64,000 nucleotides of DNA from an uncultured Rhodocyclaceae bacterium (GTDB lineage Bacteria > Pseudomonadota > Gammaproteobacteria > Burkholderiales > Rhodocyclaceae), in assembly GCA_907163075.1 (NCBI GenBank), contig CAJQTY010000003.1, forward strand, positions 424,637-488,636, in the 5' to 3' direction. This document shows positions 44,139-46,043 of the stretch, piece by piece. Each line of letters opens with the position of its first letter. Position 1 is the stretch's first letter. The position numbers were made by a program, and so were the translations under genes. A model generated the notes under the pieces. That model made no database searches. It saw nothing but the letters and a program-made list of their open reading frames with translations, and was not told the DNA's origin.

Positions 44139-45221
<1,083 letters not shown>

Positions 45222-45239
45222 TTACTCCTAATCAGCAGA

Positions 45240-45336
45240 TGGTACACGCCGTCTCCCGCTTCATCTCCCTGAGCGGGCGCCTTACGTCTAGTTAAGGCAT
45301 TTTGCCCCCGACTGTCATTGAGCCGGGGGCTTTTTG
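45240..45336 (+). ncRNA. Candidate small RNA with CUCCC loop and intrinsic terminator
   Basis: The gap between hemB and engB holds three hairpins in a row on the plus strand. They are CCCGCT/AGCGGG (45255-45260, 45272-45277) with a loop containing TCTCCC, CCTTA/TAAGG (45280-45284, 45293-45297), and GCCCCCG/CGGGGGC (45304-45310, 45324-45330) followed by TTTTT. Both flanking genes are on the minus strand, so this plus-strand terminator needs its own transcript. A second CTCCC precedes the first stem. Unpaired CUCCC motifs can pair with ribosome-binding sites, as known for several bacterial sRNAs. The 5' end and promoter are not defined. Confidence 0.55.
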
Positions 45337-46043
45337 TTTCCGGCCGCCTTGGCCCCGCTTCTGGCGCTCCAGCCAACGGCCTTGCGGTTCTTCGGCCGCG
45401 CCACCTTCTCGCTACGCAAGCCGACGGGCGGAATCGTTTCCTGCACCGGCGTCATATCGAGCCATGCGCCAAGAATCACCTCGGCTTCAGCCACCCCGGT
45501 TTTCTTCAGGCTGGAAAACAGTTGCAGCGTACAGTTATCGCTGATCCTGGCCAACTCCCCCTGCACTTCACGCAAGGCCAGCGCCTGCTCCTGGCGGGTC
45601 AACTTGTCGGCCTTCGAAAGCAGGATATGGATCGGCTTGCCGGTCTGCGCGAACCAGCCGAGCATCTGCAAATCAAGCTCGGTCAGCGGATGCCGGCTGT
45701 CCATGATCAAAACCAGGCCGACCAGCGGCACGCGAAAACGCAGATAGGGCGCCAGCAGGCCCTCCCACTGCGAGCGGATGTCCTCGGGCGCCTTGGCGAA
45801 ACCGTAACCCGGCAGATCGACGAAGTACTTCCCCTCATCAAGGGTAAAATAATTGAGATGCTGCGTACGGCCTGGTGTCTTGGAGACAAAAGCGAGGCGC
45901 GTGTGATTGGCGAGTGTATTGATGGCCGACGACTTCCCGGCATTCGAACGCCCGGCAAAAGCGATCTCGCGCTGCGAATCGAACGGCATATCGCGCAAAT
46001 TGGCGACGGTCGTGTGAAAAACCGCCTTCTGAAAAAGTGGCAT
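45315..46043 (-). CDS. engB: Ribosome biogenesis GTPase EngB (YihA/YsxC)
   Basis: The 242-residue product has all G motifs: GRSNAGKSS (G1), [11 protein letters not shown] (G3), [12 protein letters not shown] (G4) and an FSSLKKTG (G5) region. A basic C-terminal tail of about 40 residues extends beyond the common length. It is essential for 50S assembly in many bacteria. Its 3' end overlaps, antisense, the terminator stem of the candidate small RNA. Confidence 0.95.

Follow-up and report, generated by a model that had tools for sequence, protein, structure and literature searches.

The window analysed here is a stretch of 64,000 nucleotides of DNA from an uncultured Rhodocyclaceae bacterium, in which hemB and engB (yihA) flank a candidate small RNA of the plus strand, predicted to span about 45236-45336. 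Both neighbours lie on the minus strand, as the sequence-only reading of this DNA had said, with hemB divergent from the RNA and engB convergent with it. The name engB is our assumption, made from that reading's call and from matches to E. coli YihA. The features of the locus, those of the RNA and its promoter being predictions, are:

44139-45164, minus strand: hemB, divergent neighbour (Pfam PF00490, ALAD, 455.7 bits)
45202-45208, plus strand: predicted sigmaE -35 element GGAACTA, taken from the motif count in betaproteobacterial loci
45226-45230, plus strand: predicted sigmaE -10 element TCCTA, with a 17-nt spacer to the -35 element
45237-45242 / 45249-45254, plus strand: 5' hairpin AGATGG/CCGTCT, outside the Rfam model
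45252-45337, plus strand: match to Rfam RF02837 (anti-hemB), 66 bits, full model 1-81, cut-off 49.5
45255-45260 / 45272-45277, plus strand: C/U-rich loop hairpin CCCGCU/AGCGGG, 6-bp stem, the presumed target-pairing site
45279-45284 / 45293-45298, plus strand: third hairpin GCCTTA/TAAGGC, with covariation support
45304-45310 / 45324-45330, plus strand: intrinsic terminator GCCCCCG/CGGGGGC, followed by T5 at 45331-45335
45315-46043, minus strand: engB/yihA, convergent neighbour (Pfam PF01926, MMR_HSR1, 62.5 bits)

The predicted fold of positions 45236-45337 of the plus strand has four hairpins and an energy of -43.3 kcal/mol (z = -4.14); none of 200 shuffled sequences folded as well. The loop of the 45255-45277 hairpin displays UCAUCUCCCUG, with the core CUCCCU. 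A terminator-like site was also called by a separate scan of 45100-45450. The sequence-only reading had described three hairpins, namely a 6-bp stem with a C/U-rich loop, a second small stem and a 7-bp GC terminator stem with T5. All three are present in the sequence where it placed them; its count needs correction to four, the 5' hairpin starting before 45240.

The RNA is a member of Rfam family RF02837, as its score exceeds the gathering cut-off and its place between hemB and engB fits. The earlier statement that no RNA had been described at this locus was thus mistaken, because the locus is that of RF02837 and of ncS04. In Burkholderia cenocepacia J2315, ncS04 is a 105-nt RNA with the same family name, anti-hemB, for which the part of the paper available gives a mapped start, 3' RACE and a Northern panel (PMC5688073). 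It lies in the gap between BCAL0264 and BCAL0265, in the arrangement <- -> <- (PMC5688073), and it co-purifies with Hfq (PMC5688073, PMC4603805); its level did not change significantly under any of the conditions tabulated in that part (PMC5688073). Anti-hemB also appears among the predicted RNAs of a B. pseudomallei study (PMC3521395, available in part). A review, likewise available in part, mentions an Hfq-bound Burkholderia RNA named Bc7, conceivably the same one, with hemB as its predicted target and the sigmaE-dependent RybB as its homologue. No paper on RF02837 itself was found, and the accessible parts of the papers found give no function for anti-hemB. The window RNA shares with ncS04 and RF02837 its sequence, loop hairpin, third hairpin and terminator, and like them it sits in the same orientation in a gap flanked by two minus-strand genes; the RF02837 model lacks the 5' hairpin.

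Conservation of the fold and the loop

A covariance search across relatives gave RF02837 scores above cut-off for 94 of the 121 genomes from the family to which the window belongs, and for 190 of the 300 sampled from its order. Weak matches at E <= 0.001 turned up in 3 of the 14 control genomes but stayed below cut-off, and we therefore used only matches that were above cut-off or had E <= 1e-6. The beta set comprises 160 loci above cut-off, one per genome: 91 of the 94 from the family and 69 better-scoring ones from the order. A motif scan also saw the RNA in 22 of 24 named loci located via EngB (among them Propionivibrio, Accumulibacter, Rhodocyclus, Azonexus and Dechloromonas), several of which seem to coincide with loci of the main set, so that the two sets are not independent. 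Model R1, built from a first set of 93 aligned sequences, matched nine of the ten named loci on which it was run, including L088; on the contig of the tenth, L101, the RNA is present just beyond the fetched stretch (L040).

Compensatory change was examined in 144 sequences, which are the 160 loci minus near-duplicates, with no hand picking. The four helices were paired in 94.5% of cells, as against at most 52.6% for structures slid along the alignment, a comparison that favours the real version in that the structure was taken from the window sequence. Both-sided changes were seen in 19 of 25 pairs, and a shuffle control, which ignores kinship, gave a mean of 10.8, with none of 500 shuffles as high. 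In the 5' hairpin all six pairs showed such changes (about 91% of cells paired), as did five of six in the third hairpin (91.7%) and seven of seven in the terminator (95.4%). The stem of the loop hairpin was nearly invariant, with 99.2% of cells paired and both-sided changes in one of its six pairs. The first set gave the same picture, the 5' hairpin included; its 93 sequences were hand-picked from 143 free of near-duplicates, and Burkholderia-type sequences were among the 50 dropped.

CTCCCT is present in 159 of the 160 beta loci and in 22 of 23 loci from outside the order. The proposal of a separate plus-strand small RNA with a loop suited to pairing with ribosome-binding sites is well supported: it has conservation, compensatory changes and a promoter-like element of its own behind it, and a Burkholderia transcript belonging to this family has been published. 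The terminator loop contains another C-rich motif, CCCCUU, in 121 of the 160 beta loci; the window copy (45311-45323) does not have it. At least two RF02837-type matches in one place or genome were noted at L351 and L358 and in genomes G348, G364 and G393.

A predicted sigmaE-type promoter upstream of the RNA

The pair GGAACTA and TCCTA would place the start of transcription near 45236; no sigma70-type promoter was found in 45100-45450. Upstream of the RNA most beta loci carry GGAACTT-N16/17-TCNNA. With one cut locus excluded, 159 beta loci remain, and 117 of them have a strict motif, GGAAC-N17..20-TCNNA, within 90 nt upstream of the RNA (75 of 91 from the family and 42 of 68 from the order); this count includes the loci in which the motif was first noticed. 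It occurred in none of the opposite strands, in 0 of 316 upstream blocks and in 1 of 315 downstream blocks, and shuffled sequences gave a mean of 1.0 and a maximum of 3. Relaxation to [GT]GAAC raised the count to 130 of 159, so that 29 of the 42 loci missing the strict motif still lacked it. Among the named loci (24 fetched), 20 of the 22 that are RNA-positive in the motif scan carry the strict motif. The beta element resembles the sigmaE consensus of Salmonella micA and rybB, GGAACTTTT and GTCAAA, as given in the accessible part of PMC1804206; Bordetella SigE uses the E. coli sigmaE promoter rpoHP3 and permits deletion of E. coli rpoE, according to the part available of PMC3490749.

The window's own genome encodes one RpoE above the TIGR02939 cut-off (324 bits), with neighbours that we read by eye as rseC and mucD (L202). 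No rseA/rseB-like frame was noticed between rpoE, rseC and mucD at that locus. In relatives, 28 of 30 rpoE loci have [GT]GAACT[AT]-N14-17-GTC upstream of the gene, as against 0 of 30 in each control, the motif having been chosen after looking at those loci; unlike these, the own rpoE had no GAACT-type element that we could find upstream. Within the family, the RNA was above cut-off in 91 of 110 genomes with RpoE and in 3 of 11 without it (Fisher p 2.5e-4, uncorrected for kinship); 19 of the 110 had no RNA above cut-off, and three genomes without a detected RpoE retain both the RNA and the promoter. Genome-wide, the strict pattern is rarer in the own genome than its reversed control (5 matches versus 31), and the genes downstream of the five matches form no regulon-like set. 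We infer from the element and its conserved position that the window RNA is probably under sigmaE control. Among the matches listed in our literature search on sigmaE-dependent small RNAs of betaproteobacteria, judged from titles and the beginnings of abstracts, none describes this RNA as sigmaE-dependent.

Distant homologues and the search for targets

In a GTDB sample of the class (185 genomes), 48 genomes had an RF02837 match at E <= 1e-6 and 10 had one above cut-off, each figure including the own genome and another from its order; control genomes gave none at E <= 1e-6. Outside the order this leaves 46 genomes, and 23 of them supplied one locus each; these loci are mostly better-scoring and were chosen as RF02837 matches. 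Model R1, built from betaproteobacterial sequences, matched all 23, with rough E-values of 4.3e-13 to 8.2e-6. None of the 23 has hemB beside the RNA. Searches with E. coli proteins located polA in 15 of 23, engB/yihA in 15 and both in 11, whereas polA was found beside the RNA in 0 of 60 beta loci. Ten of the 11 loci with both genes have the order polA, RNA, engB, and there engB reads in the direction opposite to polA and the RNA; the remaining locus, L367, has this order inverted. Of the 23 RNAs, 17 are preceded by a relaxed, GAACT-type promoter (controls 0 of 23 each), which leaves six without it, and four by the strict motif.

In E. coli K-12 the place between polA and engB is occupied by Spot 42 (spf), in the order polA, small RNA, yihA/engB and in the same orientation as in the 10 distant loci. 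Model R1 has no match at E <= 1 in the Spot 42 region of E. coli. Conversely, membership of the Spot 42 family (RF00021) was rejected for the window RNA, that family being unreported for the window at gathering and for 45100-45450 at E <= 1; at gathering it is also unreported in 20 distant loci.

The CUCCCU core resembles the anti-Shine-Dalgarno end of 16S rRNA, and the loop may pair with ribosome-binding sites. The step in which CUCCCU would cover a Shine-Dalgarno sequence is drawn by analogy with ErsA on algC and S17 on BP2158. In the own genome, TCAGGGAG-N1-11-ATG had 24 matches and the reversed pattern 7, an enrichment that Shine-Dalgarno use would itself give. Three of the 24 are the antisense strand of other C/U-loop RNAs of that genome. 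The others lie scattered, and several of them lack a long reading frame; products were judged by eye, and one of them (L245) looks TolC-like. Porin starts in 29 of 30 fetched loci have mostly GAGGAG-type sites, some automatic start choices being doubtful, and their duplexes with the common Rhodocyclaceae loop range from -5.8 to -11.0 kcal/mol, scored without a control gene set. The exact 12-mer TCAGGGAGGTGA occurs at 59 places in 61 genomes, of which 26 are the RNA's own antisense strand; no gene start recurred, by eye, in 30 of the other 33. These searches yielded no recurrent target.

Eight further RNA candidates lie in the own genome outside the window (L002-L007, L012 and L013), each with a C/U-rich stretch and a terminator and all below Rfam cut-offs; most have, by eye, an upstream ACAGACGC-type motif. 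Three of them (L005, L006 and L007, on contig C3 at about 731, 745 and 717 kb) are very similar copies spaced by about 13.9 kb, and their flanks share 92-98% identity over stretches of 0.2-1.4 kb.

Interpretation and relation to known RNAs

We consider it likely that the locus encodes an independent, trans-acting envelope-stress small RNA of about 100 nt, driven by RpoE, whose CUCCCU loop acts on Shine-Dalgarno sequences and which is probably the ErsA of betaproteobacteria. RpoE (sigmaE) would transcribe it from the GGAACTA-N17-TCCTA promoter, and transcription would stop at the RNA's own terminator. Under envelope stress the exposed C/U-rich loop would pair with Shine-Dalgarno regions of mRNAs, probably with Hfq, and such pairing would mostly repress the mRNAs bound. 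The fold with its compensatory changes, the conservation, the promoter-like element in a fixed position and the engB/polA context were computed here; transcript, terminator end and Hfq co-purification are in print for B. cenocepacia, in the parts available of PMC5688073 and PMC4603805.

Regulation in cis, by transcription against hemB or engB or by overlap with their mRNAs, would agree with the family name, and wherever hemB was found (128 of the 160 beta loci) it diverges from the RNA, whose 5' end lies a median of about 76 nt away. Both genes are nearby in 51 of the 59 loci L019-L077; 100 of the 160 loci are no longer than about 700 nt, so that missing neighbours are partly a matter of truncation. 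Nevertheless, hemB is missing within 1.5 kb from four full-length RNA-bearing beta loci (L065, L072, L075 and L076, the last two from one genus) as well as from all the distant ones, and structure and loop persist there. The sequence-only reading had noted that the 3' end of the RNA is antisense to the last codons of engB. That holds in the window, and the 3' end overlaps the end of engB in 85 of the 134 loci in which a convergent engB stop was located; it is no fixed feature across loci, the overlap ranging from -347 to +159 nt, and in 10 of the 145 beta loci in which engB was found (135 convergent) engB is on the strand of the RNA. Antisense regulation of engB was rejected because the overlap is not constant. 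The near-invariant part of the RNA is, moreover, the internal loop and not the overlap. We thus regard a cis-acting role as improbable, the hemB neighbour of the beta RNA as incidental and the name anti-hemB as denoting a neighbour, not a target.

A somewhat less remote, still unlikely alternative to an envelope-stress RNA is a C/U-loop RNA, either constitutive or with a housekeeping promoter, that tunes metabolism like the RF02278 RNAs (S17/bdhR1). The lack of significant change of ncS04 across the tabulated conditions would fit this, as would the presumed Burkholderia-type loci L049, L050 and L066, which lack the strict sigmaE promoter that the window RNA has; repression through pairing with ribosome-binding sites is the presumed mode of action of related C/U-loop RNAs, shown on one target for S17, which has a sigmaA promoter. 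Against it stand the sigmaE element, which holds a nearly constant position in 117 of the 159 beta loci and recurs, relaxed, in most of the distant ones, and the lack of a detectable sigma70-type promoter in this region of the window. The unregulated look of the RNA in Burkholderia may be because the promoter differs there. That only a terminator with incidental hairpins lies here, with no separate RNA, is scarcely credible, given that all four hairpins show compensatory changes, that the promoter-like element is conserved and that a transcript of this family has been published.

The RNA itself is already known as a catalogued Rfam family and as the published ncS04 transcript. What is new, within the literature searched, is computational throughout: a fourth hairpin, a sigmaE-type promoter, and the link to polA-engB and ErsA. 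If our reading is true, this would be the first sigmaE-dependent small RNA recognised in betaproteobacteria, within that same literature. A family named after its neighbour would gain a candidate role, as the small-RNA arm of the betaproteobacterial sigmaE envelope-stress response and as a probable counterpart of ErsA. A precise promoter, start site and loop are now defined, by prediction, for changing.

Among known systems, MicA and RybB of enterobacteria are sigmaE-dependent, with conserved GGAACTT-type promoters, and act on mRNAs of outer-membrane proteins; the likeness noted here is one of promoter, and neither family is reported for the window. The RF02278 RNAs (bdhR1 and B. pertussis S17) have, like the window loop, C/U-rich unpaired stretches complementary to ribosome-binding sites, whereas they are shorter, have two hairpins and lie at other loci. 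RF02278 was rejected for the window RNA, being unlisted for the window at gathering or at E <= 1. Another locus of the own genome (L009) has an RF02278 match above cut-off, at 61.6 bits. In the accessible part of its paper, S17 directly represses BP2158, one target, through pairing with the ribosome-binding site; its transcription begins at a sigmaA promoter, and RNase E cleaves it (PMC11722255).

The probable counterpart is ErsA of Pseudomonas aeruginosa. As far as the accessible parts of the sources go, ErsA depends on sigma22 (AlgU) and represses both algC, by pairing together with Hfq at the ribosome-binding site, and the porin OprD (PMC6321483), and it activates amrZ, reportedly independently of Hfq (PMC5819304; a further source on ErsA is PMC7565897). 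SPA0122 of P. aeruginosa is described as a putative Spot42 whose context is conserved with E. coli and Salmonella, and is listed at PA5492/engB (PMC3349714, available in part). ErsA has 132 nt, whereas the window RNA is predicted to have about 100 nt and has hemB in place of polA; Hfq is reported for both ErsA and ncS04. We take SPA0122 to be ErsA, in part from the coordinates tabulated for ErsA, and polA is presumably the other-side neighbour of the engB-adjacent RNA in Pseudomonas. ErsA and the window RNA would then have in common the place at engB, by way of that identification, and a sigmaE-type promoter, which for the window RNA is known from sequence alone. From place and promoter, not alignment, the beta anti-hemB RNA is probably orthologous to ErsA. 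We incline, with rather less assurance than for the role proposed above, to the view that RF02837, ErsA and the other proteobacterial polA-engB small RNAs are one ancient sigmaE-driven RNA, which would have kept its CUCCCU loop and its place at engB through the split of beta- and gammaproteobacteria, with Burkholderia having moved off sigmaE and enterobacteria carrying Spot 42 instead.
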